Origin: a virus
Strand: one strand, 5' to 3'
Length of the DNA stretch: 59,687 nucleotides
IMG/VR virus record: IMGVR_UViG_3300033153_007620
Location: 1 to 59,687 of that record
The position numbers were made by a program, and so were the translations under genes. This document shows positions 23,382 to 43,356 of this stretch, in pieces (the stretch's first letter is position 1; the number at the start of each line of letters is the position of its first letter). The notes beneath the pieces are model-generated. The model saw nothing but the letters and a program-made list of their open reading frames with translations, had not been told where the DNA came from and searched no databases.

Positions 23382-23493
23382 TTGACAAATAATGGATATA
23401 GTTTTTCATACTTATAGTATGAAAAATTAATAACTGTCTTTTTCTCGATCGAGACTGACAGTGAAAATTGTCAGGAGAGGGAGACAGATTATT
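23382..23493 (+). promoter_or_regulatory. Promoter and SD-sequestering leader, copy 1
   Basis: TTGACA at 23382-23387 follows the shared word AAAAAAGTAC; the -10 is poor (CATACT at 23407-23412). The leader folds as CTGTCTTTTTCTC (23434-23446) against GAGAGGGAGACAG (23475-23487), 13 pairs with three G-U. The SD (GGAGAGGG) lies inside the stem. An inner hairpin CTGACA (23455-23460) / TGTCAG (23469-23474) stacks next to it. A CTCGATCGAG palindrome gives an alternative pairing of the 5' arm. Related leaders are at 29927, 39393 and 43293. Confidence 0.75.
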
Positions 23494-24455
23494 ATGAGTA
23501 AAAAATTATCACAAGAAGAATGGGTTGAAAAAGCATACAAAATGCACGGAGATAAGTATGGCTATTCTAAATCTATATATAAAGGAAATAAAATTCCAGT
23601 AGATATTTATTGTAAGATCCATAAAAAATATTTTACACAAACTCCTAAAAACCATATGAGAGGACAAGGCTGTCCTGATTGTGGGAGGGAAAGTTCCATA
23701 CAAGCTGTAAGGTACACACAAGAGAAATTTTTTAAAAAATGTATAAAAATTCATGGAGATAAGTATGACTACTCTACATCTATTTATTTAGGGTCTGAAC
23801 AAGAAGTAGAGATTTTCTGTAAAAAGCATAATTTGTATTTTACACAAAAAGCTTCTGCGCATTTAAGAGGACATGGATGCCCCACATGCTCCAAGAATAA
23901 GAAATCGAATAATAATGAGTTTATTACAAAATCCATGCAAATCCATGCAAATATATACAATTATTGTTTAGTAAATTATATTAATAATAAAACAAAAGTT
24001 AAGATTATTTGTAATAAACATGGAATTTTTGCAATTAGCCCGGATCACCATTTGCGTGGGAATGGTGGCAAAGGAAGAGGATGTCCCACATGTTCCAAAG
24101 AGAATATAAGTAATAGAATTACTGGCAAAACAAATCCAAATTATAAACATGGAAGAACTAAATATTGCAGCAATGAAAGAAATACCCCTGAGAATTACCA
24201 ATGGATGAAAGCAATTAAAAAAGATAAGATTTGCTGTGATTGTTGTGATGTAGTTTTTCTAAAGAAATGAAAAGTGTAGCACATCATTTAAATTCTTGGA
24301 TGGATAATATGGATCAAAGGTATAACTTGAATAATGGGGTTTGTATTTGTGAAAAATGTCATGCTAAATTCCATAATGGCTATGGTTGGGGACATAATTC
24401 AAAACAACAATATGAAAATTTTAAAGAGAGGGAATATCATGACAACAAGCAATGA
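23494..24455 (+). pseudogene. HNH homing endonuclease with DUF723-type repeats, frameshifted
   Basis: ATG at 23494 lies directly behind the leader SD. Three zinc repeats ('HGDKYxYSxSIY', 'CPxC') precede 'KTNPNYKHGRTKYC' and 'CCDCCDVVF'. The frame then stops at 24270 (LKK*). The HNH half continues in the -1 frame as 'SKEMKSVAHHLNSWMDNMDQ', 'NNGVCICEKCHAKFH' and 'GYGWGHNSKQQYENFKE' to 24455. Alignment with the intact relative at 18274 places one missing T in the T-run near 24254. An A-AAG word nearby could allow slippage, but a deletion or assembly error is simpler. It sits between portal and the MuF-like gene. Confidence 0.85.
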
Positions 24456-25530
24456 GCAGTTATCTGATTTATCAATCACTAATCAAATCTTAATAGAAAG
24501 ATTTAAGAACTCGGTCAGTTCTTCTATGCTTATATTTTTCAGAAATATGGAAAAAAAGGTCCAGAAAGAAATAAAAGCCCACTATGACGAAGATCGTTTA
24601 ATAATTACAGAAAAAAATGTACTTAAAAGAAAACTCAATGAAATACAGGAAATTGAACTCAACAAAATCCATACACAAATAATGAGAGATGTCCATAAGT
24701 TTTTAGGGTCACAAGCACATATCTACGAAAATCAGTTAAAAGAAGTGCTATCAGAAGTCTCTGATTTTATCAAAGTGAAAAGAATTGATGATAAAACATT
24801 AAAAAAGATTTATGACAAAGAACCAATTACTTTTGATAAGGGGAAATATTACACATTAAACACTCTATGGTCGACCTTCTTCCTGAGTGTAAGAACTACT
24901 CTAAATCAAAATACGGAGAGTGCCTATAAATTAAAGAAGACCACTAGAGAATACACATCTGATCTGAATAAAGGGTATAAGATTAACGAAAATTCATTAG
25001 CAACTATCATTGCTGTATACATACAGCAAGCCTCACAGGTGGCTTCCAAGTCTGTTAATAAAGTGAATGAAAATTTCGTTCGGGGATATATGTGGCTATC
25101 GACACTTGATTCTAGGACCTCCCCTATATGCATAGACTATTCCGGAAAAGTGTACTATCATGAATTTCCTGAGAGATCTACACTACCATATGAAGCGTAT
25201 CCGCCGATTCATTTTTTCTGCCGTTCGACTACATCGCCAATCGTAAAAAGCTATAGAGAATTAGGTATTCCAGCAAGCGAGCTAACTGAAGCACAAAAAG
25301 CCTTGATTCCAAATAGTACTCCTGTTGATACGACATACAGCCAGTGGTTTGAGCGTCAACCAAATTCTATTAAAAAAGAAGTTCTTGGTTCTGTAAGATG
25401 GAATGTTTATCAGAATAATAATTTAGATGTGATGTCATTTTATAGCAGAGATGGTAGGAAATTGACTCTTAAACAATTGCAGGACAAAAATGTTACAATA
25501 AGCAAAGAGTATATGCGATACATTAATTAA
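24439..25530 (+). CDS. Head morphogenesis protein (Mu gpF / SPP1 gp7-like)
   Basis: ATG at 24439 behind GAGAGGG is chosen over far-upstream in-frame Met codons, which overlap the HNH gene; 363 aa. Long N-terminal helices lead to the C-terminal minor-head domain: 'YMWLSTLDSRTSPICIDYSGKVYY', then 'YEAYPPIHFFCRSTTSPI'. The paired Cys and the PP-x-H-x-x-CR signature is diagnostic of Phage_Mu_F/SPP1_gp7. Such proteins are few-copy head components that bind portal and act in assembly or DNA delivery. Position right after portal fits. Confidence 0.85.
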   Translation: MTTSNEQLSDLSITNQILIERFKNSVSSSMLIFFRNMEKKVQKEIKAHYDEDRLIITEKNVLKRKLNEIQEIELNKIHTQIMRDVHKFLGSQAHIYENQLKEVLSEVSDFIKVKRIDDKTLKKIYDKEPITFDKGKYYTLNTLWSTFFLSVRTTLNQNTESAYKLKKTTREYTSDLNKGYKINENSLATIIAVYIQQASQVASKSVNKVNENFVRGYMWLSTLDSRTSPICIDYSGKVYYHEFPERSTLPYEAYPPIHFFCRSTTSPIVKSYRELGIPASELTEAQKALIPNSTPVDTTYSQWFERQPNSIKKEVLGSVRWNVYQNNNLDVMSFYSRDGRKLTLKQLQDKNVTISKEYMRYIN

Positions 25531-25539
25531 GGAGAAAAG

Positions 25540-26826
25540 ATGACAAATACAGAATGGCTGTTAGAAAAATGCCCATCACCAATGGATAGTGCTGATCTGA
25601 TAAATTTATATGATGAGCTATGTGAGTATCAGGGATCTCATATGTCTTCTGAATCATTTAAACGGCTTTGTAGGAAAACAGCACAAGAATATAGAGACAA
25701 TGCAGAAATATCAACAGAAACAGATAATTTAAAAGATACAGAAGTATTATTAGATAAATTGAATGAGACAGATAATAAATTAGAGTTATCTTTGAAGAGC
25801 TATAAGATTCAGGATGTAGAGGCCGCCGCTAAAATAGCTGGGATAGATTTGAGCAAGTGGAGGTGTATTAGGAAGAAAGTTAAAGCAACACAGAACGCGT
25901 CTAATCCTTATTTTATCGTTGAAGGTTCTTTTGCCCCTAAAGAAGAAGATGAGATCACGCCTGAAAAATACGCCGAAAGATTCAAAGATTTGGTGGAAGA
26001 TTATGAACCTCCGGTTCCACCACTCCTAAAGACAAAAATAGACCCTAAAAACAGAATGGCTGAGATTTGCATCATGGACTTTCACTACGGACAGTTAAGT
26101 TGGGATGAAGAAACTAGAGATGATAACTATAATATTGAGATAGCTTCTAAATTGTTGGATGGCACAATTGATCATTTTATTCAAGAAACAGAAGGAAAGA
26201 TTGACAGATATGTACTTCCAATCGGAAATGACTTTTTTAATTGCAATACGAAAGCCAATACAACATTTGGAGGAACACCACAAGATGAAGATGGGCATTT
26301 CAAACATACTCATCTTACAGCAGAAGCACTCTGGGTAAAGCAAATAGATAAATTAAATACTGTTGCAGATGTAGAGGTTGTCTTAATTTCTGGCAATCAC
26401 GATGAGGAAAGACTCTGGTATCTTGGGCAGTTTTTATTTGCTTGGTATAGAAATAATTCATCTGTGATTATAGATAATTCTCCTCCACAGAGAAAATATA
26501 TTAGATATGGTAGAAATCTTTTAGGCTTTACACACGGAAATAAAGAAATCCGAAACTCTCTGCCTTTATTGATGGCACAGGAAATGCCTATAGATTTCTC
26601 TGAAACTAAATTTCGAGAATGGAATATTGGACACCTACATAGCTATTCTGAAAAGAATACAAGACTTGTTAAAGAAACTCATGGGATTAGGGAAATTGTA
26701 TTACCTTCGTTAGTACCTTTGGACTCATGGCACTCTGGTAAAGGATATATGCATTTGAATGAGGCTATGTGTTTTATATGGGATAAAGAGAAAGGAAAGG
26801 TGATGACACATTATTTCCATCCATAA
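25540..26826 (+). CDS. Calcineurin-like metallophosphoesterase
   Basis: 428 aa, SD AAGGAG. The N-terminal 150 residues are helical and may bind nucleic acid (DVEAAAKIAGIDLSKWRCIRKKV). The C-terminal domain has the metallophosphoesterase motifs in order: 'IMDFHYGQ' (D-x-H), 'GNDFFN', 'ISGNHDEER', 'GFTHGNKE' and 'GHLHSY'. Every metal ligand position appears filled. Family members hydrolyse phosphomonoesters or phosphodiesters, often in nucleic acid. Its place among head genes is seen in other phages; it may act on DNA during packaging, on host cyclic nucleotides, or as a virion protein. Substrate not deducible. Confidence 0.85.
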   Translation: MTNTEWLLEKCPSPMDSADLINLYDELCEYQGSHMSSESFKRLCRKTAQEYRDNAEISTETDNLKDTEVLLDKLNETDNKLELSLKSYKIQDVEAAAKIAGIDLSKWRCIRKKVKATQNASNPYFIVEGSFAPKEEDEITPEKYAERFKDLVEDYEPPVPPLLKTKIDPKNRMAEICIMDFHYGQLSWDEETRDDNYNIEIASKLLDGTIDHFIQETEGKIDRYVLPIGNDFFNCNTKANTTFGGTPQDEDGHFKHTHLTAEALWVKQIDKLNTVADVEVVLISGNHDEERLWYLGQFLFAWYRNNSSVIIDNSPPQRKYIRYGRNLLGFTHGNKEIRNSLPLLMAQEMPIDFSETKFREWNIGHLHSYSEKNTRLVKETHGIREIVLPSLVPLDSWHSGKGYMHLNEAMCFIWDKEKGKVMTHYFHP

Positions 26827-26839
26827 AATAAAAAAGTAC

Positions 26840-26868
26840 TTGACAAATTCTCCTATATGGATTATTGT
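26840..26868 (+). promoter_or_regulatory. Promoter of the shared AAAAAGTACTTGACA type
   Basis: TTGACA (26840-26845), 17 bp, TATTGT (26863-26868), preceded by AAAAAAGTAC like those at 23382 and 42747. It starts 14 nt after the phosphoesterase stop and gives the HNH gene its own transcript. Confidence 0.6.
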
Positions 26869-26885
26869 TGTTATCAGGAGGAAAT

Positions 26886-27671
26886 ATGAAAACTTTTGAG
26901 AAGAATATGAAAGAAATATTAGGAGATGATATTTATTTTAGTAAAAATAAAACAGAAAGGAAAATAGCATTAAATAAAGTGGGATATAAACTATGCCATA
27001 CCTGTGAAACAATTAAAAAGTTAGACGAATTTGGAAAAGGCAAATATACGTGGGATGGAAAAAATCATGCTTGCCTTTCTTGTATGATAAAGAAGCGCAC
27101 AACGTATAAGAAGACACTTACGCCTGAGCAGTTAGAGAATCAGAAAAAATATACAAGAAATTATCAAAAAAGTTGGAGAGCTAATTTAAAAAAGAATGAT
27201 ATTGAAAAATTCAGAGAACTAAATAGGAAAAAGAAAGCACAGTTCAAAAAGAATCACCCAGAAAAATTTAGAGAAATGATGAAACTTCAGGCTAGGAGAA
27301 GACGTTCTCACAATGCCCATAGCCGAATACGACATACATTAGCTGCAAGGATGGTATCCGCTTTACAAAGACAAGATACATCTAAAAAAAGTAGCACATT
27401 TGATCTTATAGGAGAAACACCTGCGTTTCTAGTAAATTATCTCAACACAATTGCATCCAACGGACTAAAATATGGAGATAAAAATGTACAAGTAGATCAC
27501 ATAATTCCATGTGCATTTTTTGATCTAACAAGTGAATTAGAACAAAGAATATGTTTTAACTATAGAAATTTACAATTACTTTTAGCAAATGATAATAGGA
27601 TAAAGAGTGACACTCTGCCATATAATTTAGATGAATTATATAATGAAATAGAAGGACATCATCAACGATGA
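26886..27671 (+). CDS. HNH-type homing endonuclease, single zinc knuckle
   Basis: ATG at 26886 behind AGGAGG; 261 aa. One treble-clef knuckle (CHTCETIKKLDEF ... CLSC, residues 38-68) is followed by a very basic helical linker. The nuclease domain shares all hallmarks with the genes at 29991 and 39456: 'FDLIGETPAFLVNYLN', 'ASNGLKYGDKNVQVDHIIPC', 'ICFNYRNLQLL', 'DN'. It is a free-standing endonuclease between the phosphoesterase and a second, broken HNH gene. A strong terminator follows it. Confidence 0.88.
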   Translation: MKTFEKNMKEILGDDIYFSKNKTERKIALNKVGYKLCHTCETIKKLDEFGKGKYTWDGKNHACLSCMIKKRTTYKKTLTPEQLENQKKYTRNYQKSWRANLKKNDIEKFRELNRKKKAQFKKNHPEKFREMMKLQARRRRSHNAHSRIRHTLAARMVSALQRQDTSKKSSTFDLIGETPAFLVNYLNTIASNGLKYGDKNVQVDHIIPCAFFDLTSELEQRICFNYRNLQLLLANDNRIKSDTLPYNLDELYNEIEGHHQR

Positions 27672-27683
27672 GGCATCACAGAG

Positions 27684-27737
27684 GCTGTATAGGTTGGTTA
27701 CTTTTGCGAGAGGTTAACCTATACAGCTTATTTTTAT
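27684..27737 (+). terminator. Strong intrinsic terminator
   Basis: GCTGTATAGGTT (27684-27695) / AACCTATACAGC (27716-27727), a perfect 12-bp stem with a 20-nt loop, followed by TTATTTTTAT. Confidence 0.85.
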
Positions 27738-27739
27738 GC

Positions 27740-27768
27740 TTGACAAACTTTTCTACTTATGTTATATT
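27740..27768 (+). promoter_or_regulatory. Promoter after the terminator
   Basis: TTGACA (27740-27745), 17 bp, TATATT (27763-27768) with TGT before the -10. Restarts transcription for the accessory genes ahead of the scaffold. Confidence 0.7.
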
Positions 27769-27786
27769 GTATGGAGTATACTAATG

Positions 27787-27870
27787 CAGGTAGGAGGATT
27801 TTATGAGTAGTTACAATGAGAAATTAAAACAGGTAGGAGGATTATGAGTAGTTACAATGAGAAATTAAAA
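27787..27870 (+). repeat. Tandem duplication of an SD-plus-start segment
   Basis: Two adjacent copies (27787-27829 and 27830-27870) of a unit that holds CAGGTAGGAGGAT and ATGAGTAGTTACAATGAG. They are identical except that copy 1 has two extra T. Copy 1 encodes a 14-codon frame whose TGA overlaps the ATG of copy 2. Confidence 0.9.
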
Positions 27871-28182
27871 CACCCTTTGTGACAGAAGAAGAGGCTAGAA
27901 ATATTTCGTAGAGATAAATTTGCATGCACCGTATGTGGTAATACTGAGAGTACTTTACATGCCCATCATAAGGAGTATATGGTAGGGAAGGAGCCTTGGG
28001 AACATCCAAATGATATGATTACAACGTTGTGCGAATATTGCCATAAATTGGAACACAATATTACTACAAACATTGGCAATAAAAAGCAGAGCAAAGACAT
28101 TAGATGGCAGAAAGCAAAATTAATTCTACTTGAATACCACAATTTTAAATGGAGAACTATACTTAAAGCAAGATTAAATTAA
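27844..28182 (+). pseudogene. HNH endonuclease with an in-frame TGA
   Basis: From the ATG at 27844 the frame reads MSSYNEKLKHPL, then TGA (27880-27882), then QKKRLEIFRRDKFACTVCGN with 'HAHHKEYMVGKEPWEHP', 'MITTLCEYCHKLEH' and a basic C-terminus to 28182. The HNH motif (HH ... N ... H) is complete. Relatives usually read 'LKxPxWQKKRLEI', so the TGA replaces a Trp codon (TGG). TGA acts as a normal stop in many genes here, so this is a nonsense mutation rather than an alternative code. The start region is duplicated. Confidence 0.8.
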
Positions 28183-28194
28183 AGAGAGGAACAA

Positions 28195-28587
28195 TTGACA
28201 GAAACAGAAAACCAAGAATTAGACTATCTGCTTGGAGAATACGAAGAGAAAATGTTTGATATTGCTACAAGGTACGCAGACTATGAAGGAGTGTGTGTTT
28301 GTGGTGATGAGACTGACCCACATTTTCGATACACACTGCACCCAGATGTAATGAGTTTATGTTTGTACGCTTTGAGGAAGGAAGATTTTGATTCATTTGA
28401 GATATTACTGTTACTAAATGATATTATGATTAGTAGCGAGCTGGAAGACAATGAGGAAGAACATACTGACAGTAGAATTGATGAGTTAACTGAAATTAAT
28501 ATGGAGCATTACCGCAATAACACTGATTGGAAGAATCCACTTCATGTGGAGAAATTATTAAAAAGAAATTCAAAAAGAGGAAGATGA
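28195..28587 (+). CDS. 130-aa acidic protein (TTG start)
   Basis: TTG start behind AGAGAGGAAC. Strongly acidic and helical (ENQELDYLLGEYEEKMFDIA; SSELEDNEEEHTDSRIDELTEI), with 'VCVCGDETDPHFRYTLHPDVM' in the middle. No recognised family. The 3' end overlaps the next gene by 4 nt (ATGA). Confidence 0.55.
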   Translation: MTETENQELDYLLGEYEEKMFDIATRYADYEGVCVCGDETDPHFRYTLHPDVMSLCLYALRKEDFDSFEILLLLNDIMISSELEDNEEEHTDSRIDELTEINMEHYRNNTDWKNPLHVEKLLKRNSKRGR

Positions 28588-29120
28588 AAATGAAAGAAGA
28601 AAGAGTTTTTAAACCAGAGATGTGGAAGGAAGGTATATTAGAACATATAACAAAGACACCGGGGGTATTACGTTATGGCACTAAAGTTGGAAAATTAAGA
28701 AAAGCAAATAAAGTTATCATTGCCAACGAAGTACTCATAGATACTCTGGAAAGAATAATAGCGGTACAAGACATACCACTTGTATTTGAAGAAAAATGTA
28801 GAGTTATAGCTCATAAGATGGTAGTCTCATTCAGAGATCACATTCACCGTTCATTGAGAATAAATACGTATGTATTTAAATATAAATTCAAATATAAATT
28901 TAAATATATGTATGAAATAAACAGCGTAACTATAGCACAAATAGCAGATAATGAATTTGCTATGGAAGTTCACTATGATTTTGCGATGAAAAGAAAGAGA
29001 TCTTTCCTTGGTCTTTTTAATACAAGTATAGAAGAAAAGTTGCAGAAAATAGATGAAATTCCTGATACCACTAAACGCAGGGATAAATTAAAGAAGTACA
29101 TGGATAAGTACGCAGTTTAG
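28584..29120 (+). CDS. 178-aa protein with a scaffold-like C-terminal motif
   Basis: ATG at 28584 is chosen because it overlaps the previous stop and follows AAAAGAGG. The central region holds a periodic 'YVFKYKFKYKFKYMYEI' stretch from a near-tandem DNA repeat (28868-28910). The last 24 residues, ending 'IDEIPDTTKRRDKLKKYM' plus DKYAV, match the end of the next protein and of the scaffolding protein at 31494. Function unknown; capsid association is proposed from the shared tail. Confidence 0.6.
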   Translation: MKMKEERVFKPEMWKEGILEHITKTPGVLRYGTKVGKLRKANKVIIANEVLIDTLERIIAVQDIPLVFEEKCRVIAHKMVVSFRDHIHRSLRINTYVFKYKFKYKFKYMYEINSVTIAQIADNEFAMEVHYDFAMKRKRSFLGLFNTSIEEKLQKIDEIPDTTKRRDKLKKYMDKYAV

Positions 29121-29144
29121 ATATAATAAGTAAAGGAAGTACAG

Positions 29145-29912
29145 ATGAGAAAAGTGACATTAGAAGAATTTAAAAGTTGGAATCCTACAGAAGAATTATT
29201 AGAATTTTTTATTATAAATAATTTTGATAATTTTGATTTTGATATGATTGACAACATTGGAATGGATGATGGATGGTATATTAGAGATTTGAGTGAATTG
29301 TCTAAAGTAAAAAGAAAGTTTGATGTTCATGGAAAAATAATTAGAGAGGAATACCCAGATATGGTATTTTTGAATCATTATGATAAACATGGATACATAA
29401 TAGAGGAATTGGTTGCTACAAACAGATATCGTATTTTTGAGTATGATGACAAAGGCTCCTGCCGAGTTACATATCCAGAAGGATATATGATTGTCAAAGA
29501 TTTATCAGAAATTTTTAGGAATAATGGGTATACTCGTTATCCTATGAAAGCTCATGTTGATACAAATAGAGTTTATGAATATGATTCTACAGGTAATATA
29601 ATAAAATCTATTTACTTGCCAAAATGCACCATTACTGAATATAAAATTGAATACAATAATGGCACTATTTCTTCTATAAAAAAAGTACATAGTGGAAAAA
29701 GTATAGATTTAAACGATATAGATGAAATAAAAGAAAATACCTTACGAGAGCTTATTCTAGCAACATATAATTATAGATGCGATGAAGAGAAAGATAGGAT
29801 TTCCAAAATACAAAAAGAGGATCTACAGAAGATCAATAATATCGAAGATACTGTTGTACGCAGGGAGGAACTAAAGAAATATATGAACGAACACGCCTGT
29901 TCAGAATACTGA
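29145..29912 (+). CDS. 255-aa repeat protein with a scaffold-like C-terminal motif
   Basis: SD AAAGGAAG. The middle 120 residues hold imperfect YD- or MORN-like strand repeats: 'KFDVHGKIIREEYP', 'HYDKHGYIIEELV', 'EYDDKGSCRVTYPEG', 'EYDSTGNIIKSIYLP'. The C-terminus, 'INNIEDTVVRREELKKYM' plus NEHACSEY, shares the I-x2-I-x-D-x3-RR-x2-L-x-KYM motif with the preceding protein and the scaffold, partly at DNA level. The N-terminus has an NFDNFDFD acidic repeat. Likely a head-associated accessory protein; role unproven. Confidence 0.6.
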   Translation: MRKVTLEEFKSWNPTEELLEFFIINNFDNFDFDMIDNIGMDDGWYIRDLSELSKVKRKFDVHGKIIREEYPDMVFLNHYDKHGYIIEELVATNRYRIFEYDDKGSCRVTYPEGYMIVKDLSEIFRNNGYTRYPMKAHVDTNRVYEYDSTGNIIKSIYLPKCTITEYKIEYNNGTISSIKKVHSGKSIDLNDIDEIKENTLRELILATYNYRCDEEKDRISKIQKEDLQKINNIEDTVVRREELKKYMNEHACSEY

Positions 29913-29926
29913 GTAAATGGATAAAC

Positions 29927-29990
29927 AATAACTTTCTTTCTCTTATGCTAGAACGATGGTTATGTACTATTAGGAGAAAGAAAGGTTATT
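29927..29990 (+). promoter_or_regulatory. SD-sequestering leader, copy 2
   Basis: AATAACTTTCTTTCTC (29927-29942) pairs with GAGAAAGAAAGGTTATT (29974-29990): 16 pairs and one bulged G, ending at the base before the ATG. The SD (AGGAG, 29972-29976) is partly inside the stem. Unlike the other three leaders it lacks the CTGAYA inner hairpin and has no adjacent promoter. Confidence 0.7.
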
Positions 29991-31160
29991 ATGGGAAAGA
30001 GTAAATGGAAGATAGACGAGTATGGAAGACAGTGTACTAAATGTGGAGAATATAAATTATGGGAAGAATTTGGTAAAAGTAAAAGAGGAGTACAGGGATA
30101 TAAATGCCAATGTAAATCTTGTAGAAACCAAAAAAGTGCAAAAAAACGAAGGGATATAGGTATTAAAATAAGTACCAAATGGAAAATAGATGAGCATGGC
30201 AGGGAATGTGCTTGTTGTAAGAAATATAAATCGTGGGATAACTTTACTAAATCAAAATCAAGGAGAACTGGTTATTCTAGTACATGTAGAGTTTGTAATA
30301 ATAAAATTCAAATGAGGAAAAGAAGAAATACTGGAGTTCAAATAAGGCATGTATATAAAATAGATGATAAAGGTAGAGAATGTACTGTTTGTGGTGTTTA
30401 TAAGTTATACGATGAGTTTTCTCCAAGTAAAAAGGGTATGTATGGATACCAAAGCAAATGCAGATTCTGTGTAAATAAAATGGGAATACAACAAAGAAGA
30501 GTGGAAGGGATTATAGCAAGACCAAAATACTATATGGATACTAACGGTAGATACTGTAGTAAATGTAAACAATACAAAGTATGGAAAAATTTTAATAAAG
30601 ATAATAAAGATAATAAAGGTATAAATGAATATGGGAGTATATGTAAATCATGTAAAGCAAAAAGAAGTGCACAATATCATAAACAAAATAAAGAAATTAT
30701 AGCAAAGAAAGGAGCCAAATGGCGTAGAGAAAATAAAGAACACATAAAAGAACGTCAGAAGATTAGACTTCAAAATGACCCAGAGTATAAACTGACAAGA
30801 AAGCTTCGTAGTAGAGTACGTAGTGCTATAAAAGCTCAAAACACTAAAAAGTCCGGTCACACAATGAAGCTCATTGGTTGCTCTCCAAAATTCCTTATTA
30901 ACCATTTTAATACTGCAGCTTCTAATGGTTTAAAATTTGGAAACAAAGACATAGAAGTGGATCACATCATTCCCTGTATATCATTTAATTTATCTGATGA
31001 ATTAGAACAATACATTTGTTTTAACTGGAGAAATCAGCAATTACTAACAGCGTTTGATAATCGGTCTAAACATGATACACCTCCTGATAATGTCGAAGAA
31101 TTATATAATGACATAAAAGAGCATGTCTTAAAAGACAATCCTCATTTAATTATAAATTAA
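29991..31160 (+). CDS. HNH-type homing endonuclease with four zinc knuckles
   Basis: 389 aa. Four knuckle repeats ('GRxCxxCxxYKxWxxF', 'CKxC') occupy residues 5-225; a basic linker with 'QNKEII' and 'ENKEHIKE' follows. The nuclease domain has 'TMKLIGCSPKFLINHFN', 'ASNGLKFGNKDIEVDHIIPC', 'ICFNWRNQQLL', 'DN'. All expected residues of this subfamily are present. Translation start is masked by the leader stem. It separates the accessory head genes from the scaffold gene. Confidence 0.9.
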   Translation: MGKSKWKIDEYGRQCTKCGEYKLWEEFGKSKRGVQGYKCQCKSCRNQKSAKKRRDIGIKISTKWKIDEHGRECACCKKYKSWDNFTKSKSRRTGYSSTCRVCNNKIQMRKRRNTGVQIRHVYKIDDKGRECTVCGVYKLYDEFSPSKKGMYGYQSKCRFCVNKMGIQQRRVEGIIARPKYYMDTNGRYCSKCKQYKVWKNFNKDNKDNKGINEYGSICKSCKAKRSAQYHKQNKEIIAKKGAKWRRENKEHIKERQKIRLQNDPEYKLTRKLRSRVRSAIKAQNTKKSGHTMKLIGCSPKFLINHFNTAASNGLKFGNKDIEVDHIIPCISFNLSDELEQYICFNWRNQQLLTAFDNRSKHDTPPDNVEELYNDIKEHVLKDNPHLIIN

Positions 31161-31167
31161 AATCGCG

Positions 31168-31210
31168 CTCACACCTCTGAATCTACGTTCAAGTGTGAGT
31201 CTTCTATTTA
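31168..31210 (+). terminator. Probable terminator after the HNH gene
   Basis: CTCACAC (31168-31174) / GTGTGAG (31193-31199), with a short interrupted T-rich tail (TCTTCTATTT). Moderate. Confidence 0.5.
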
Positions 31211-31493: not shown

Positions 31494-32288
31494 ATGATGG
31501 GTTATTTTGATGAAGTAGTGATGCCCTCTTTGAAAGAAGGTAGTGATGTAGGTGTCCTTAAGACAGGATTTGATGAGTATGTGTCAAAACAAAATGAGGA
31601 GTTTTCAAAAGGGTTGCGGGAAAATCGTGACACGATCTTGGATGAGAAGAAAACTTTAGCAGGACAGTATAAAGATGTTCAGGAGAAGTATGCTTTCCTA
31701 GATGGAAAGGAATTCAATGCCGAAGCATACAATAAGTTAAACTCTGATTTAGAATCTTATCAGGCAAGTGCCAACAAAAATGAGGAAGAATTCAGACAGC
31801 AGTTAACAGATCAGTATGAGAAAGGTAAGAAATCTTATGAAGAAACTATTACCCCTACAATTAATTCCCTTAACCTTAAATTAGAAGAATCTAATAATCT
31901 GAGGGATGATTACCAGACTAAGTATAAAAATTACTTAAAAGACAGTGCGCTTAGACAGTCTCTTGCCAGAATAGGTGCTGAACCAGATGAGTTCTGGTTT
32001 GAAGGTTTTAAACAATCAGCAAAAGTTGATTATGATGAAGCTGGAGGCATTAAAGGTATTTCCATTAAACATGATGGAGGATACATTCCCCGTGAAGATT
32101 GGGAAAAGATTTTTCCAACAACTGATCGTGGAAAGAAAATGATCAAAACTTTGATCAACACTGGGATGGGAGCAACTGGAAGTGGAACTGGAAAAGGTGG
32201 AGCAACTACACTCGAAGACATAAATAGTATTGAAGATGCTACTGCACGAAGAGCTGCATTAGCTAAATACATGGAAGGTAAAAGTTAA
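31494..32288 (+). CDS. Capsid scaffolding protein
   Basis: 264 aa, SD CAGGAG; a second ATG follows directly. Residues 30-155 are a long coiled coil (QNEEFSKGLRENRDTILDEKK ... EEEFRQQLTDQYEKGKKSYEE). Then comes a short folded part 'DSALRQSLARIGAEPDEFWFEGF', a Gly/Thr linker, and the C-terminal 'INSIEDATARRAALAKYM'. Length, coiled coil, low complexity and placement right before the coat gene fit scaffolds. In P22-like phages the C-terminal helix-turn-helix of the scaffold binds coat; the tail motif here probably has that role. Confidence 0.75.
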   Translation: MMGYFDEVVMPSLKEGSDVGVLKTGFDEYVSKQNEEFSKGLRENRDTILDEKKTLAGQYKDVQEKYAFLDGKEFNAEAYNKLNSDLESYQASANKNEEEFRQQLTDQYEKGKKSYEETITPTINSLNLKLEESNNLRDDYQTKYKNYLKDSALRQSLARIGAEPDEFWFEGFKQSAKVDYDEAGGIKGISIKHDGGYIPREDWEKIFPTTDRGKKMIKTLINTGMGATGSGTGKGGATTLEDINSIEDATARRAALAKYMEGKS

Positions 32289-35192: not shown

Positions 35193-35201
35193 GGGGATGT
35201 T

Positions 35202-35519: not shown

Positions 35520-35520
35520 T

Positions 35521-37536: not shown

Positions 37537-37551
37537 ATATAGGAGTTATAA

Positions 37552-37758: not shown

Positions 37759-37777
37759 GATATAAAAGGAATGATAT

Positions 37778-37975
37778 ATGCCAATTTTTAGTATACATTT
37801 AACTGAAAAGTTAGATAAGAAAGAAACAGAAGAAATGTATAATGCTGTTGCAAAAGTAATAGCATTACACCAGAACTGCCCTACTTCAGCAGTAAGTGGA
37901 TTTATTGTCCCATTGGAATTATCCAATATAGGACAGGGAAATAAAACATGGCGGGAGATTTTAGATGAAACATAA
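37778..37975 (+). CDS. Tautomerase-superfamily-like small protein
   Basis: 65 aa, SD AAAGGA. After Met removal Pro would be the N-terminus. The layout 'PIFSIHLTEKLDKKETEEMYNAVAKVIALHQNCPTS' with 'AVSGFIVPLELSNIGQGNKTW' follows that of 4-oxalocrotonate tautomerase (about 62 aa; PIxxI, long helix, xAPxxxVxVxI, N-x-G-x-GG). Pro-1 is kept, but the catalytic Arg residues of bacterial 4-OT are not visible at their expected places. Enzymatic function is therefore uncertain; a structural trimer/hexamer module is possible. It overlaps the next gene by 11 nt. Confidence 0.45.
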   Translation: MPIFSIHLTEKLDKKETEEMYNAVAKVIALHQNCPTSAVSGFIVPLELSNIGQGNKTWREILDET

Positions 37976-38996
37976 AATTCAAAGAAAATATGCGATACCC
38001 ATTGCTGGGCTAGTTTTAATATCTGTTGCTATAGCATTCACTTTTTTAAGTTCCTTTCAGATGCGAGTATTCGATAATCAGGTTATTAAATCTGGAATAG
38101 AAAAGAATATGGAGATAGAGTATGTCAGAGCAGCACAATTTCAATTAATCTCAGCAGAATTGGACCATGCTCTTGATGGTGCCGGTATTCTTGGACGTAT
38201 TCAAATTGCTAAAATTGAAAAAGAGATTTTAGCATTAGACAACTTAGCTTTTCATCTTGAAACTTTTAATAATGATGGAAATAAGATTGCCAAAATATTA
38301 GATAAATACACAAGGGGGATTTTTTATGGGAAACCCTCAGATGCTAATGATCCCTTTATAATGATAGTAAATATAAATAAAGAAGCTATTATTGCAACAG
38401 ACACATCTGAGAATTGTGCAGTTTTCAATGAAGATGGAACACCACAAAGAACCCGTACTTTAGATGAAGAGTATCCTATGCATGCAAATGTTCTTCTTGC
38501 GGAAACAGCTTTTCCTAGAATTGTAATGAATGATGCATGGACGTTAAAAACACCTATATTTTTTCAATTCTTAGGGGATACTCCTTTACTTTTAGAATCT
38601 TTTGATCTTGAGGGACTACGAACAAACTTCCTGTTGAATGAAGGACGTTGGGATATCACTTTTAAAAATTTGGAATTTCTTGTACCAACTTACTTGCATG
38701 GAGATAAAGATGTTTTAGGAGTTCAAAGGGTCACAAATAGAGGATATTTAAATGATGATATAAAAATTATTATCTATGTTGTAGCTTTTAAATTCTTTGA
38801 TTATATTGAAGAAGATCCACGGATAATTGAATACTTAGCGAAATATGATTTCAGAGTTACAGAGATTGAAAATTATCATATTGCCGAAGTTGAACTATTA
38901 GAAGCTAATATAATTACTTATAAGCTTGCAAGTGTATTGCTGAATTTTATTATTGGACTAGCTATGCTATCACTCTATGTAATCTTAAAGGAGTGA
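37965..38996 (+). CDS. Two-helix membrane protein with a large central domain
   Basis: 343 aa. Residues 10-30 (AIPIAGLVLISVAIAFTFLSS) and 322-340 (VLLNFIIGLAMLSLYVIL) are transmembrane helices with basic residues at the N-terminal cytoplasmic side. The roughly 290 residues between them should lie outside the inner membrane. They are alpha then beta, with PAS/Cache-like character ('PFIMIVNINKEAIIATDTSENCAVFNEDGT'). Such topology is typical of sensors and is uncommon in phages. It precedes a holin-like gene by 4 nt, so it may act in lysis control or superinfection exclusion. Inference only. Confidence 0.55.
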   Translation: MKHKIQRKYAIPIAGLVLISVAIAFTFLSSFQMRVFDNQVIKSGIEKNMEIEYVRAAQFQLISAELDHALDGAGILGRIQIAKIEKEILALDNLAFHLETFNNDGNKIAKILDKYTRGIFYGKPSDANDPFIMIVNINKEAIIATDTSENCAVFNEDGTPQRTRTLDEEYPMHANVLLAETAFPRIVMNDAWTLKTPIFFQFLGDTPLLLESFDLEGLRTNFLLNEGRWDITFKNLEFLVPTYLHGDKDVLGVQRVTNRGYLNDDIKIIIYVVAFKFFDYIEEDPRIIEYLAKYDFRVTEIENYHIAEVELLEANIITYKLASVLLNFIIGLAMLSLYVILKE

Positions 38997-39000
38997 TGAT

Positions 39001-39336
39001 ATGTGGTATGATATAGCACAGACTTTTGTGCTGGCGTTTTTTGGTACGGTGGCTAGATTTTTGATGCACCGCAAATTATTTACTGGGGATTTAGTAGCCT
39101 TCCCCATTTTGATAACATTATTAATGCTTTTATTTTCTACAAAATTAGAAGGTTTTAATAGAGAAACAATGTGGGGTATTTCTGGAATTGCTGGATTTAC
39201 ACTTCCAACTTTTAAAAATTGGTTGGGTAATACAACTATAGCAAAATTGATTCATGCATATTTCACCGGAGCTAAAAGTGGAGCAGATAGTATGCTTGAA
39301 AAACTTGGTGAAGAATTAGAAAAGAATGAGGATTAA
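39001..39336 (+). CDS. Holin-like protein
   Basis: 111 aa, SD GGAG. Three hydrophobic segments (about residues 5-21, 29-47, 57-72: 'TFVLAFFGTVARFLM', 'LVAFPILITLLMLLFS', 'MWGISGIAGFTLPTF') and a charged C-terminal tail (EKLGEELEKNED) are holin traits. Size fits. No endolysin gene is recognised in the window, so the lysis assignment rests on topology and on its pairing with the previous membrane protein. Confidence 0.55.
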   Translation: MWYDIAQTFVLAFFGTVARFLMHRKLFTGDLVAFPILITLLMLLFSTKLEGFNRETMWGISGIAGFTLPTFKNWLGNTTIAKLIHAYFTGAKSGADSMLEKLGEELEKNED

Positions 39337-39339
39337 TAC

Positions 39340-39455
39340 TTGACAGATTTAGTATTCCATGCTATAATGATAGTATGAGTAAATAAAAATAACTTTCTTT
39401 CTCTCGATCGAGACTGGTAGTTATAAAAATTATCAGGAGAGAAAGGAAGATTATT
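39340..39455 (+). promoter_or_regulatory. Promoter and SD-sequestering leader, copy 3
   Basis: TTGACA (39340-39345), 17 bp, TATAAT (39363-39368) with TGC before it. Leader stem: CTTTCTTTCTCTC (39393-39405) against GAGAGAAAGGAAG (39437-39449), 13 pairs with one G-U, burying the GGAGAG SD. Inner hairpin CTGGTA (39414-39419) / TATCAG (39431-39436) and a CTCGATCGAG palindrome as in copy 1. Confidence 0.8.
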
Positions 39456-40595
39456 ATGAAAAAAAGTGAATGTTTAATAACAGAAGAAGGAAGGGAATGC
39501 ACTTGTTGTGGTGTATTTAAAAAATGGGAAGGATACCATAAAGATAAAACTAGTTCAACTGGACATGGTACACAATGTAAAGTTTGTAAAAATAAAAAAG
39601 ATGCCAAACGAAGAAGATCTCAAGGAATGAATATAAGATCAGAATATGAAGTAGACGAGCACGGTAGAGAATGTACTTGTTGTGGAGAATATAAGTTATA
39701 TGCTGAATTTTATAAAGATAAAAATGGCATTAATAGCTATGACAGTAGATGTAAACTATGTACTAATACAATAAATACAGAAAAAAGAAGATTGGCAGGA
39801 ATGAAACCCCTATCTGAATCAAAGATTGATGATGATGGCAGAGAATGTTCTGAGTGTGGCATTTATAAATTATGGAAAGGTTTCAACAAACAGACAACAG
39901 GCATAAATGGACATAGTAATAATTGTAGAGTATGTGCAGCAAAAAGGCATTCAGAATGGTATAAAAAGAGTACAAAGAATAAAAAGAGTCGAAGGGATAT
40001 AGCACAGGAGAAATATTCAATAGATGAATATGGGCGCAAATGTACTGAATGTGGTGTGTATAAGTTCTGGGAAAATTTCTATGCTCAGAAAACTGGCATT
40101 CATGAGCATACTGCTAAATGTAAATCTAAAAAAACAAAAAGACACAAGAAATACCAAGAAGAACATAGAGAAGAGGCAAATAAACGTGATAGAGATAGAC
40201 GTAAAAATGACCCAGAATACCGATTAAAGGATATACTTCGTAGAAGATTACATGACGCTCTTACTTCTCAAAATGCTAAAAAATTTGACCATACAATGGA
40301 TCTCATAGGCTGTACTCCCAAGTTTCTTCTTAACCACCTGAACACAGTTGCTTCTAATGGATTGAAATTCGAAGATAAAGAAATTCAAGTAGATCATATT
40401 ATTCCGTGTGCAGCATTTAATTTACAAGACGAATTAGAGCAGCTTGTTTGTTTTAATTGGAGAAATTGCCAACTATTAACGGCAACAGATAATAGTTCTA
40501 AAAATGATAAATTGCCCATTAACGCCGAAGAATTACGTAATGAAATAAAAGAGGAAGTATTAAAAGAACGCCCACATTTAGCAAATACTGTATAA
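39456..40595 (+). CDS. HNH-type homing endonuclease with four zinc knuckles
   Basis: 379 aa. Four knuckles ('GRECTCCGxxKxWxxx', 'CKxC'; the last has lost its final Cys pair: 'AKCKSKKTKR') fill residues 10-225. The nuclease domain has 'TMDLIGCTPKFLLNHLN', 'ASNGLKFEDKEIQVDHIIPC', 'VCFNWRNCQLL', 'DN'. Closest relatives in the window are the genes at 29991 and 1806. It stands between the holin-like gene and the first neck gene, with its own promoter and masked SD. Confidence 0.9.
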   Translation: MKKSECLITEEGRECTCCGVFKKWEGYHKDKTSSTGHGTQCKVCKNKKDAKRRRSQGMNIRSEYEVDEHGRECTCCGEYKLYAEFYKDKNGINSYDSRCKLCTNTINTEKRRLAGMKPLSESKIDDDGRECSECGIYKLWKGFNKQTTGINGHSNNCRVCAAKRHSEWYKKSTKNKKSRRDIAQEKYSIDEYGRKCTECGVYKFWENFYAQKTGIHEHTAKCKSKKTKRHKKYQEEHREEANKRDRDRRKNDPEYRLKDILRRRLHDALTSQNAKKFDHTMDLIGCTPKFLLNHLNTVASNGLKFEDKEIQVDHIIPCAAFNLQDELEQLVCFNWRNCQLLTATDNSSKNDKLPINAEELRNEIKEEVLKERPHLANTV

Positions 40596-40628
40596 CTTAA
40601 TGGACAATAAATGTCCGAAGGAAAGGAA

Positions 40629-41177
40629 ATGACTATTACATTTGTTGTAGAAGATGGCACAGGATTAAGCGATGCCACTTCTTACTGTACTGTAGACGAG
40701 TTTAAACAATATTGGTTTAATAAAAATTATGACTATAACAATCTTACTGAAGATCAAATTAAACGTCTTTTAAATGATGTGACTGCCTATATTGATAATA
40801 GTTACAGAAATGGTTTCCCCGGAAAAAGGGATACCACTACACAAAGCTTGGAATGGGGACGAGAAGATGCTTATTATTTGGATGGATTTACTATTGATGA
40901 TGGAACTGTCCCTCCTGAAATAAAATCGGCAGTTAATGAAATGTCGTATCTTGTTACCCAAGGAAATGATCCAGAAGCTATTATTAGTAAGTCTGGTAAA
41001 ATATTAAAAGAGGCTTCTCAGGTAGATGTTATAAAGGAAAGTTTTACATATGAGGAAGGTTCTCCTATGTCACAGGATATTTATACATCAGTTGATAATA
41101 TTTTGAGTAGAATCACAGGAGGCGTCAAAGATGCCTACGTTATTAAAGTAATCAGGGTCGGAGGTGAATCCGCCTAA
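40629..41177 (+). CDS. Head-tail connector (DnaT-like / gp6-type adaptor)
   Basis: ATG at 40629 is chosen because AAGGAAAGG precedes it; an in-frame ATG at 40611 has no SD. 182 aa. 'SYCTVDEFKQYW', 'LTEDQIKRLLNDVTAYIDNSYRNGFPG', 'SLEWGREDAYYLDG' and 'VPPEIKSAVNEMSYL' match the phage 'putative DnaT-like' family. That family has the gp6/gp15 adaptor fold that binds below the portal. First of the neck genes. Confidence 0.75.
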   Translation: MTITFVVEDGTGLSDATSYCTVDEFKQYWFNKNYDYNNLTEDQIKRLLNDVTAYIDNSYRNGFPGKRDTTTQSLEWGREDAYYLDGFTIDDGTVPPEIKSAVNEMSYLVTQGNDPEAIISKSGKILKEASQVDVIKESFTYEEGSPMSQDIYTSVDNILSRITGGVKDAYVIKVIRVGGESA

Positions 41178-41191
41178 CAAGGGGAGAATAA

Positions 41192-41587
41192 ATGGCAACA
41201 ATTTTTTTGGCGAATTCGGAAATATATGTCGTTGCAAGTAATATGGATCAGGCGGTGGAAAAATACTATGAAAATAAATCCACATATCCAACTACAATGA
41301 TAACATTTAAAGGTCCAGATTATACACTAACAGAATCAACGGTAGCAGCAATCACACCTGTGGTGTTACCAGCAGGAGCAGTTACGGCAGGATGTACTGT
41401 AATTCCAGATACAGTGGCATACATTAAAGAGGGGGATCAAATAACTCTTACAGCAACAGGAGCTGGAGCATATCCTACCTTCGTTAATTGGACAGACTCT
41501 GAAAGTGCAGTACTATCTACTGATAACCCTTACACTTATACCGCAACAGCATCTGATATTACAATCAATGGTAACTTTTCCGCATAA
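41192..41587 (+). CDS. Beta-sandwich protein with an InlB-repeat-like domain
   Basis: 131 aa, SD AGGGGAG. The N-terminus (ATIFLANSEIYVVASNMDQAVEKYY) resembles a small phage structural module. Residues 75-131 ('EGDQITLTATGAGAYPTFVNW', 'YTYTATASDITINGNFSA') match the divergent InlB B-repeat/bacterial-repeat pattern. Likely a virion surface decoration. It overlaps the next start by one base. Confidence 0.55.
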   Translation: MATIFLANSEIYVVASNMDQAVEKYYENKSTYPTTMITFKGPDYTLTESTVAAITPVVLPAGAVTAGCTVIPDTVAYIKEGDQITLTATGAGAYPTFVNWTDSESAVLSTDNPYTYTATASDITINGNFSA

Positions 41588-41769
41588 TGGATATTGAAGA
41601 ACTTACAAACTTGGTTAAAGAGCAAATGGAAAACAGGAATTATGAAGAAAGTATAGAATTCCTCAAGGCTGTGGGAGTTATTGATGAAGATGGTTGTTTG
41701 TCGGAGAACTTTTATTCACGAGAGGTTATTGAAGAATATAACAAAGAGGTAATTAATGGCAAAGTATAA
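41587..41769 (+). CDS. 60-aa acidic protein
   Basis: The ATG overlaps the preceding stop (TAATG). Acidic helical protein (DIEELTNLVKEQMENRNYEESIEFLKAVGVIDEDG). Overlaps the next gene by 14 nt, so it is translated as part of the neck cassette. Function unknown. Confidence 0.5.
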   Translation: MDIEELTNLVKEQMENRNYEESIEFLKAVGVIDEDGCLSENFYSREVIEEYNKEVINGKV

Positions 41770-42163
41770 TTATGATCCAATAACTGCTAAGGCTTTAGAA
41801 CTCGTGAATAAATATGGTACGGATATATATTTGTTGAAAGATAGTAGTTTATTATGGAAAAAGAAATATGATAGGGTGTTATTGAAAGAGTATTGGGAGA
41901 ACACAGATACTACGGAGATAGTTTTTGTTCAGCCGGAGATGGAAGAATATCTGGGAGATGGTGTATTAACGAAGTTTAAGCAGGAAGAGATTGATGGGAA
42001 ATTAATTAAGAAGACTGATACATTGATTATTGCTACTAAAATTCCAGAGCCGGAGCTAGGTGATAAAATAAGAATAGGAAGTACGGAGTACAAGTACATC
42101 AATCATGAATCTGTAATGCCTAATAATGTAGTTATCATATATAAGGTGCAGGTACGAATTTAA
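41756..42163 (+). CDS. Putative head-closure (neck) protein
   Basis: 135 aa. SD is AAAGAGG inside the previous frame. Compact beta-rich protein with 'YDPITAKALELVNKYGTDIYLLK' at the start and 'PEPELGDKIRIGSTEYKYINHESVMPNNVVIIYKVQVRI' at the end. That C-terminal pattern is typical of head-tail joining/stopper proteins (SPP1 gp16, HK97 gp7-like). Position between adaptor and tail-completion genes supports it. Confidence 0.6.
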   Translation: MAKYNYDPITAKALELVNKYGTDIYLLKDSSLLWKKKYDRVLLKEYWENTDTTEIVFVQPEMEEYLGDGVLTKFKQEEIDGKLIKKTDTLIIATKIPEPELGDKIRIGSTEYKYINHESVMPNNVVIIYKVQVRI

Positions 42164-42171
42164 AAAAGTGC

Positions 42172-42200
42172 TTGACAGATTTAGCGAATGGGTGTATAAT
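42172..42200 (+). promoter_or_regulatory. Promoter for the tail-completion gene
   Basis: TTGACA (42172-42177), 17 bp, TATAAT (42195-42200), a full consensus preceded by AAAAAAGTGC. Confidence 0.8.
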
Positions 42201-42212
42201 AAGAGGTAAGGG

Positions 42213-42722
42213 ATGGGAAACTCTAAGAAGTTTATTGCTGATATCGAAAAATTTGGGGAAGCGGTAGAAGCGAGTTCCGAATTAGTTAAGAGAGAAGTGG
42301 CACGTAATTTATTTACCAAGATTATAGATAGAACACCTATTTGGTTCCTCCATGAAGATCCCGGAGGTACGAAAGGAGCATGGAGACCGTCAAATGGCAG
42401 ACCAATAACAGCATTCATTAATCGAAAAGATCCTAGCGGTGAGGCAGTAAAAAAGATAATGGAACAAGTTATTGCACGATCCAAAGCTGGAAAATCTATA
42501 TATCTAACCAATGCTTCCAAACACATATTTGTTTTAGAGGACGGGAAATTTCCGATTGGTGGGAAAGGTTCTTGGAATAGTATTACTCAGCAATTTGAAA
42601 AAAGATCTGAAGGTGGATATTCAACTCAATTAAAAGGTGCAGGAATGGTTAAGATCAGCTTATCCGAATTCGAAGAAATTGTAGCCAGAGCTGTGAGAAA
42701 ATACCGAGTGAAAATATATTAA
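42213..42722 (+). CDS. HK97 gp10-like tail-completion protein
   Basis: 169 aa, SD GAGGTAAGGG, unusually close to the promoter (a 5' leader of only about 5 nt is expected). 'ELVKREVARNLFTKIIDRTPIW' followed by 'GTKGAWRPSNGRP' and, near the C-terminus, 'LEDGKFPIGGKG' is the HK97-gp10_like pattern (helix, G-x-x-K-x-x-W, then a strand). These proteins complete the neck/tail interface. Confidence 0.75.
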   Translation: MGNSKKFIADIEKFGEAVEASSELVKREVARNLFTKIIDRTPIWFLHEDPGGTKGAWRPSNGRPITAFINRKDPSGEAVKKIMEQVIARSKAGKSIYLTNASKHIFVLEDGKFPIGGKGSWNSITQQFEKRSEGGYSTQLKGAGMVKISLSEFEEIVARAVRKYRVKIY

Positions 42723-42746
42723 AGATAAAATAAAATAAAAAAGTAC

Positions 42747-42775
42747 TTGACAAATAACGGATTCCGTGTTATACT
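42747..42775 (+). promoter_or_regulatory. Promoter for the tail-terminator gene
   Basis: TTGACA (42747-42752), 17 bp, TATACT (42770-42775) with TGT before it; preceded by AAAAAAGTAC. Confidence 0.75.
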
Positions 42776-42794
42776 TATAGGAGTGAAATAAAAA

Positions 42795-43229
42795 ATGATT
42801 GAACTTGACATCAAAAGCGGGCTTATGGAACAATTAAATTCTTTCATTCAAGCCTACCCGATAGAAATAAAAGATACAGGCATTTCATACGATCCTGATG
42901 TGAGCACTCCATTTTTAGAAGTTTCTGTACTTTATGGCGAACCGAATCAAGTCACGTTCGGCAGTATAGCCCAGAATAGGTATAATGGTATCCTGCAAAT
43001 AGATATCAATATTCCATCAGGACAGGGGGAAGGTAAGCTCAAAGAAATACTGAGAGCTATTGAGCCATTTTTTCGCAGAGGAATTTCAATAACACACACT
43101 ACAGATTTATCTGAGCAAGTGGTTATACGAGTACTGAAAACTTATTTGAGTGATAACATCTATGAAAGTAAGCCAAACATGTATGCTAGGATTTTAAATA
43201 TACAGTGGAGATGTGATTTGGATAATTAA
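42795..43229 (+). CDS. Tail terminator-like protein (DUF4128-type)
   Basis: 144 aa, SD AGGAGTG. 'KSGLMEQLNSFIQAYPIEI', 'PFLEVSVLYGEPNQVTFGS', 'YNGILQIDINIPSGQGEGKL' and 'IEPFFRRGISI' fit the DUF4128/tail terminator (lambda gpU, HK97 gp10 neighbour) pattern. Forms the ring that ends tail-tube growth. Followed by an HNH gene and then the tail tube gene. Confidence 0.7.
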   Translation: MIELDIKSGLMEQLNSFIQAYPIEIKDTGISYDPDVSTPFLEVSVLYGEPNQVTFGSIAQNRYNGILQIDINIPSGQGEGKLKEILRAIEPFFRRGISITHTTDLSEQVVIRVLKTYLSDNIYESKPNMYARILNIQWRCDLDN

Positions 43230-43236
43230 AAAGTGC

Positions 43237-43356
43237 TTGACAGATTTAGGAAAGTGTGTTATACTTACAGTATGAAAAAATTAAATTAATAACTGTCTTC
43301 TTCTTCGTACGAAGCTGATAGTTGTAAAATTATCAGGAAGAGGGAGACAGTGTTTT
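43237..43356 (+). promoter_or_regulatory. Promoter and SD-sequestering leader, copy 4
   Basis: TTGACA (43237-43242), 17 bp, TATACT (43260-43265). Leader stem: CTGTCTTCTTCTTC (43293-43306) against GAAGAGGGAGACAG (43337-43350), 14 pairs with two G-U, burying the GGAAGAGG SD. Inner hairpin CTGATA (43315-43320) / TATCAG (43331-43336). The palindrome is TTCGTACGAA here, where copies 1 and 3 have CTCGATCGAG: it changes in both arms. Confidence 0.82.

Follow-up and report, generated by a model that had tools for sequence, protein, structure and literature searches.

Low dose is a requirement in the production of homing nucleases; to our knowledge each known homing nuclease gene of T4 has a hairpin of its own. 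In the T4-like homing endonucleases I-TevI, I-TevII, I-TevIII, segB and Aeh1 mobE a stable hairpin takes up the Shine-Dalgarno sequence (SD) (PMC2988022, PMC3014915), and in T4 the late promoter is placed so that late transcripts lack the 5' arm of that hairpin (PMC2988022). Here we analyse the linear IMG/VR virus record IMGVR_UViG_3300033153_007620, which is taken in its full length of 59,687 bases and referred to as the window (G+C 33%), and in it a leader of about 70 nucleotides (nt) that precedes four nuclease genes, starting at 23494, 29991, 39456 and 43357. The window was assigned to the tailed-phage type from its portal protein (DUF4055), major head protein and terminase (Pfam and PHROG matches). 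Our analysis indicates that the leader is probably a translational lock that acts in cis and that mobile nuclease genes carry with them as a module. A single leader common to different nuclease lineages would show that the selfish element includes a brake on expression that can itself be transferred, and in that case nuclease genes could be swapped behind a shared leader.

The copies in the window are labelled a (23494), b (29991), c (39456) and d (43357), and three further copies, described below, e (L033), f (L060) and g (L159). The leader comprises a long stem holding the SD (P1), an inner hairpin (P3) and a 12-nt palindrome (P2) that shares its 5' half with the top of the P1 5' arm; P1 and P3 form a near-continuous helix of about 21 pairs. 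In leader a the P1 5' arm CTGTCTTTTTCTC, complementary to the SD strand, spans 23434-23446 (13 of 13 positions paired by RNAfold), the exact palindrome P2 TCTCGATCGAGA, which offers an alternative hairpin, 23443-23454, P3 (CTGACAGT/ATTGTCAG) 23455-23474, and the P1 3' arm GAGAGGGAGACAG, SD included, 23475-23487. The corresponding parts of leader c are the 5' arm CTTTCTTTCTCTC at 39393-39405, the palindrome TCTCGATCGAGA at 39402-39413, P3 (CTGGTAGTT/AATTATCAG) at 39414-39436 and the SD-containing 3' arm at 39437-39449, and those of leader d are CTGTCTTCTTCTTC at 43293-43306, the palindrome CTTCGTACGAAG at 43303-43314, P3 (CTGATAGTT/AATTATCAG) at 43315-43336 and the SD-containing 3' arm at 43337-43350. 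All lie on the plus strand; the 5' arms were assigned from predicted folds, P3 from predicted folds and covariation, P2 from the palindrome and its alternative fold, and the 3' arms from predicted folds and a scan for SD burial. Leader b (29927-29990, plus strand; P1 arms 29927-29942 and 29974-29990) scores 59-67 bits with the covariance model (CM); its inner hairpin is weak and its P2 degenerate, the palindrome being absent and the corresponding hairpin keeping three of its four pairs. When the window is searched with one leader as DNA the other three are found at 71-78% identity, and hence the four are homologous.

Thermodynamic predictions agree with this architecture. The four outer stems that an earlier note on this DNA had described are all present in the minimum-energy folds (-20 to -32 kcal/mol), and the inner hairpins are seen, by RNA folding and in the sequence, in the three copies for which they had been claimed; the palindromes also occur in the three copies named there, but their length is 12 nt and not 10. 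The fold z-scores are -6.4 (23494), -4.4 (29991), -4.1 (39456) and -6.3 (43357), with none of 200 dinucleotide shuffles as stable, and the range of -4.1 to -6.4 holds for all six intact copies. Among 69 start regions of the window, a few of which (all non-leader) are placed approximately, the four leader genes rank 1-4 for burial of the SD region, with a mean unpaired probability of 0.05-0.08, whereas the region ranked after them has 0.26. A stable RNA stem is thus predicted to enclose the SD of these mobile nuclease genes, as in the T4 type, and the idea of an SD-hiding leader common to HNH genes of differing architecture holds in that the leaders are homologous and the SD is buried.

Two other functions were considered for this fold and rejected: an RNA thermometer, since the unpaired share of the SD region does not exceed 33% at temperatures up to 70 C, and an intrinsic terminator or attenuator, since there is no U run and the stem is followed by ATTATTATG, GTTATTATG or a similar stretch and then by the gene start. 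The near-continuous helix of P1 and P3 would also be compatible with a site for RNase III or another processing enzyme that sets the stability of a polycistronic mRNA, with control of translation secondary, and T4-like phages are known to process transcripts of their homing nucleases (PMC2988022). This does not explain, however, why the SD strand is one of the arms in every copy, and we consider a processing site very unlikely as the principal function.

Comparison of the seven copies indicates that the structure is conserved at the level of RNA. In the alignment 97.0% of pair cells are standard, and 11 of 21 pairs show changes on both sides with pairing kept, so that the covariation suggested earlier from the window is borne out. 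The covariation score is 0.512 versus 0.279 for shuffled data (0 of 500) and at most 0.188 for slid partners, in an alignment that was fitted to the model and with a slid control that retains the relatedness of the copies. The non-Watson-Crick pairs of P1 and P3 comprise 21 G.U versus 3 A.C, which argues that it is the sense-strand RNA that is under selection, and CM scores are 59-88 bits on the sense strand versus at most 22 bits on the opposite one.

At least 11 HNH-type or related nuclease genes or gene fragments are present in the window, and the leader stands before four of them, all on the plus strand. The gene at 23494-24270 is of the DUF723/DUF4379 type (Pfam DUF4379; PHROG 681/559; open reading frames, ORFs) and is frameshifted: its ORF stops at 24270 and the HNH finger follows in the next frame (ORF 24267-24455), with start and stop overlapping in ATGA. 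The near-identical phage L006 has the same break in its counterpart, so this is not a sequencing error of one assembly. The genes at 29991-31160 and 39456-40595 encode endonuclease VII (Endo VII)-type nucleases with knuckle repeats, are 50% identical, and match PHROG 1035 'endonuclease VII' (E 1e-30 for 39456), as does the leader-bearing gene L033:7990; they group with L033:7990 and L060:1571, both at E 2e-31 against 39456. The gene at 43357-44286 is a classical HNH gene with SCG repeats (Pfam HNH; PHROG 559). Both 23494 and 43357 match HNH PHROGs 559 and 681, and 43357 is related to 18274 (E 3e-17), itself a relative of 23494. No similarity was found between 39456 and 23494 in the comparison, and that between 39456 and 43357 is insignificant (E 0.011). 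As judged from these comparisons, the leader-bearing genes therefore form two nuclease lineages, Endo VII-type and classical HNH, without significant similarity to each other. The proteins had previously been described as unrelated in their DNA-binding halves; the three architectures stand, but 29991 and 39456 belong to one family.

Not every HNH gene is preceded by the leader, and even two close relatives of leader-bearing genes lack it: 1806, with 49% identity to 39456 and a fold z of +0.07, and 18274, with 47% identity to 23494 and a fold z of +1.3. In front of another nuclease gene, at 26886, the stretch TCTCCTATATGGATTATTGTTGTTATCAGGAGG, following TTGACAAAT, looks like a truncated leader (26827-26890); it was rejected as a remnant, being a resemblance that is not significantly folded (z -0.7).

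Copies were also found outside the window. L006 has the leader of 23494 behind a different promoter stretch (19-nt pattern scan). L033, reached through relatives of the capsid protein, is part of a 168-kb record with a 76% identical capsid, and its leader (e, 7927-7992) precedes another nuclease gene. In L033 a TnpB/Cas12f-like gene (5938-7281) is followed by an array at 7485-7780, directly 5' of the leader, with five exact 32-nt repeats GTCACATCTTACATAGGTGTGTGGATTGAAAC, a partial sixth and spacers of 29-34 nt, which had no match among the sequences compared. Covariance model R1, built from five leaders with L060 excluded, then gave leader f at 72234-72306 of the 168-kb record (E 6.7e-6). This copy, too, extends up to the start codon of a nuclease gene, and it has changed in sequence almost throughout relative to the other copies. 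Its score of 34 bits is good but by itself not overwhelming for a record of 168 kb, since chance matches to R1 reach 35 bits in bacterial genomes and occur below E 0.01 about once per 40 genomes; the copy is convincing because it lies at a nuclease start and has the identical order of elements. Directly 5' of it (L060, ~1405-1492), an apparent tRNA gene with a CAT anticodon was read by eye. A seventh copy, g, was found in L159 (capsid 71% identical) on the minus strand between metallophosphatase-like and scaffold genes, with the same order of elements, a truncated P1 3' arm and E 0.026 over 1 Mb. At 2110-2190 of L159 this inverted, truncated leader is fused into a promoter that keeps TTGACA and has lost its -10 element. 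The earlier note would have given up its reading had covariation or occurrences outside this phage been lacking; the leader covaries, and copies exist in L006, in the 168-kb record (L033 and L060) and in L159.

Wider searches were negative. A broader pattern matched 16 contigs, of which L006 and the L033 record alone had the leader, and a pattern match in L005 was rejected as chance, as it falls within an unrelated ORF and the DNA there is GC-rich. R1 gave five weak matches in 196 genomes of the class of a Clostridia metagenome-assembled genome, and model R2 eight in 398 Bacillota genomes; those read were terminators or unrelated hairpins, and none of them stood at a nuclease gene. No leader was detected with R1 among about 25 relatives of 39456, 83 IMG/VR loci of relatives of 23494 and 43357, and phage regions, BLAST with two leaders against annotated phages returned chance-level partial matches only, and an Rfam scan of the window gave no family at gathering score. 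The host of the phage was not found, the closest capsids in bacterial genomes being 29-38% identical and from mixed phyla. In one bacterial genome (L062, 1499-1555) a perfect inverted repeat without homology to the leader buries the SD of a rubrerythrin-like gene.

The window and the L033 record share the same gene order, which allows occupied and empty sites to be compared between related phages, as is done for homing genes. At the positions that correspond to 39456 and 43357 the L033 record has empty sites, with gaps of 13 and 21 nt. Reciprocally, the window has no insertion at the site of leader f, which lies between homologues of 41756 and 42213, save for a promoter-like stretch; the sole site occupied in both lies before the scaffold gene. 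Leader and nuclease gene thus appear to move together. The leader had been thought either to have moved with the nuclease genes or to have been selected independently, and both the homology of the DNA and the reciprocal sites favour the former.

The palindrome P2 introduces a competing pairing. The top four bases of the arm complementary to the SD strand (anti-SD arm) can pair either with the SD strand or with the 3' strand of P2, and not with both; the description of the leader as three-stemmed is right in the sense that the top of P1 and P2 are mutually exclusive. Arm top, P2 3' strand and the strand after P3 change together, being TCTC/GAGA/GAGA in 23494, 39456 and L033, CTTC/GAAG/GAAG in 43357 and L159, and CCTT/AAGG/AAAG in L060, with 29991 degenerate; four Watson-Crick pairs at P2 have a chance of about 0.5% each. 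P2 is present in five of the six intact leaders. It is predicted to be populated as long as the nascent RNA stops short of the SD strand and to be displaced thereafter, as a metastable hairpin in the anti-SD strand of the MS2 type would be. As a rival hairpin of the anti-SD arm it suggests a switch; such competing pairings would make a compact natural switch with clear compensatory mutations.

P2 could instead act as a delayed-folding timer, like that of the MS2 maturation gene (PMC6733600), trapping the top of the arm on nascent RNA and leaving ribosomes a brief window for loading before P1 closes. Nascent prefixes are indeed predicted to contain P2 (0.8-0.9 in a and f), which is gone once the SD strand is out. 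A hairpin of just 4 base pairs with -0.9 to -2.3 kcal/mol should open fast, however, and in c, d and e P2 is in the minority at several of the lengths; a timer is therefore unlikely. Exclusive pairing also leaves unexplained that the core of P2 is a 4-nt palindrome (GATC, GTAC, GCGC or TGCA) in six of seven copies. Such a core is needless for an RNA tetraloop, and with the all-Watson-Crick pairing of P2 and the inverted L159 copy without a nuclease gene it could point to an element recognised as duplex or single-stranded DNA (an insertion site, a nuclease operator or a small mobile repeat), with SD burial as a by-product; Endo VII is described as acting on DNA junctions (PMC6083498). Yet the excess of G.U over A.C in P1 and P3 and the sense-strand CM scores point to one-strand RNA, the palindrome varies in sequence, unlike a protein operator, and each of the six leaders that a gene follows extends as far as the start codon, so that we regard a DNA-level function as improbable.

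Upstream of the leader, promoter-like sequences occur on the plus strand at 23382-23412 (TTGACA-19-CATACT, read from the sequence; in L006 the spacing is 17 nt and the -10 TATACT), 39340-39368 (TTGACA-17-TATAAT) and 43237-43265 (TTGACA-17-TATACT), the last two from a promoter scan. In a, c and d they thus precede the whole leader, none being seen inside it in a scan for sigmaA-type promoters, and 29991, L033 and L060 have no recognisable promoter. Promoters of the type AAAAAAGTxCTTGACA recur between genes whether or not a nuclease gene is present, so that the unit does not include a promoter as a constant component. The parallel with T4 drawn in the earlier note is supported in part: the hidden SD agrees, but the recognisable promoters lie upstream of the whole leader, and in T4 the late promoter yields transcripts without the 5' arm. 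The T4 mechanism proper, in which the hairpin would block translation only on early transcripts, which are long, and a phage late promoter that has escaped recognition within the leader would give a shorter mRNA lacking that arm, has an exact precedent in I-TevI, I-TevII, I-TevIII, segB and mobE (PMC2988022, PMC3014915) and might use the AT-rich inner loop (TATAAA) of leader c. We consider it quite unlikely here, given the position of the only recognisable promoters and given that the inner loop is reduced to GAAA in e, with no motif common to the copies.

In all four window leaders a candidate ORF of 3-5 codons ends 0-6 nt before the P1 arm: ATGAAAAATTAA at 23419-23430 (stop 3 nt before the arm; about 14% by chance), ATGGATAAACAATAA at 29917-29931 (stop directly before the arm), ATGAGTAAATAA at 39375-39386 and ATGAAAAAATTAAATTAA at 43272-43289, all on the plus strand. 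In L033 the stop of the upstream gene lies 3 nt before the arm. The start site predicted 7 nt after the -10 element coincides, as read from the sequence, with the ATG of the tiny ORF in a, c, d and L006.

We infer from these observations that the leader represses translation in vivo. The P1 5' pyrimidine arm would pair with the purine strand holding the SD, coaxially with P3, so that ribosomes would hardly start on the nuclease gene despite strong sigmaA-like promoters or a position in late operons. Leader and gene would move as a unit between intergenic sites and between phages, one leader serving two nuclease lineages, and the benefit would be a low dose of nuclease: a portable brake may let nuclease genes spread without over-production. 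Because the ORFs of 29991, 39456 and 43357 are intact, some translation must occur and a release step is needed. Our favoured guess is release by a ribosome that terminates just before the arm: at the stop of the tiny ORF, or of the upstream gene, it would cover the lower arm, while P2, presumably part of the open state, would hold the upper arm against its adjoining mimic of the SD and leave the SD free. A KH protein (923-1243) had been proposed as a trans factor, but it has no Pfam match and nothing ties it to the leader.

Several observations weigh against such a lock and its release. Every copy comes from one phage lineage (window, L006, L033 record and L159), the L159 leader stands without any nuclease gene, and copies from the same genome are related, so the shuffle test of covariation overstates their independence. 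With a stem as stable as -20 to -32 kcal/mol, silencing might be complete, and one locked gene may be dead, because 23494 is frameshifted. The P2 fold costs 4.6, 5.3, 6.3 and 5.3 kcal/mol in a, c, d and e (1.1 in f), and P2 alone is weak (-0.9 to -2.3 kcal/mol). The tiny ORF is missing in f and reduced to a start-stop in g, such an ORF is expected by chance in 7-17% of shuffled stretches, and three of the four tiny ORFs of the window are related by descent. The complete scheme would be a mobile RNA switch: a homologous three-stem leader, travelling with and joined to nuclease genes of at least two unrelated lineages, that opens when a ribosome reaches the end of a tiny upstream ORF (or of the upstream gene) and the P2 hairpin retains what is left of the anti-SD arm. 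We put this forward as possible but doubtful; if true, selfish genes would here share a portable module for their expression, as opposed to a feature of one gene.

Other repeated elements were noticed in the window. Near-identical 5' regions (promoter-like plus AATTAATTATTTTATGGAGTGGTAAAAATG) stand before consecutive unrelated-looking genes at 7915-8000, 8845-8930, 9690-9763 and 10524-10553, and appear to be another shared leader family in the same phage. The tails of the ORFs 28587-29120 and 29145-29912 resemble the C-terminal part of a scaffold-like protein whose gene ends at 32288 (IPDTTKRRDKLKKYMDK, IEDTVVRREELKKYMNE, IEDATARRAALAKYMEG) and are possibly scaffold-derived procapsid targeting tails.

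Among described systems, the T4-type hairpins share with this leader the SD of a mobile nuclease gene held in a stable RNA hairpin, here by prediction, and differ in that here one homologous leader serves several genes of two lineages and has the rival hairpin P2, and in that recognisable promoters lie 5' of the whole leader, whereas T4 makes an alternative transcript without the 5' arm. The leader of the MS2 maturation gene and the hok/Sok-type mRNAs likewise have a small hairpin in the anti-SD strand that competes with the SD-closing helix (PMC6733600); they concern another phage type and gene, and for our leader such folding kinetics are hypothetical. F-CphI, of the Endo VII type (DHHRN), is an example of the Endo VII motif used for homing (PMC6083498), comparable by description and not by sequence to 39456, 29991 and L033:7990 with their PHROG 1035 matches, and the abstract of that report describes no such leader. 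HEARO and the IscB omega-RNA are also structured RNAs beside an HNH nuclease gene, but the window has no Rfam match, and the leader is only about 70 nt long, ends at the start codon and contains the SD. We found no shared nuclease leader of this kind described in the open-licence literature. Hiding of the SD by T4-like homing nucleases is thus known already; what differs is one homologous, apparently portable leader on two nuclease lineages, with the exclusive pairing of P2 and with the recognisable promoters upstream of the whole leader.

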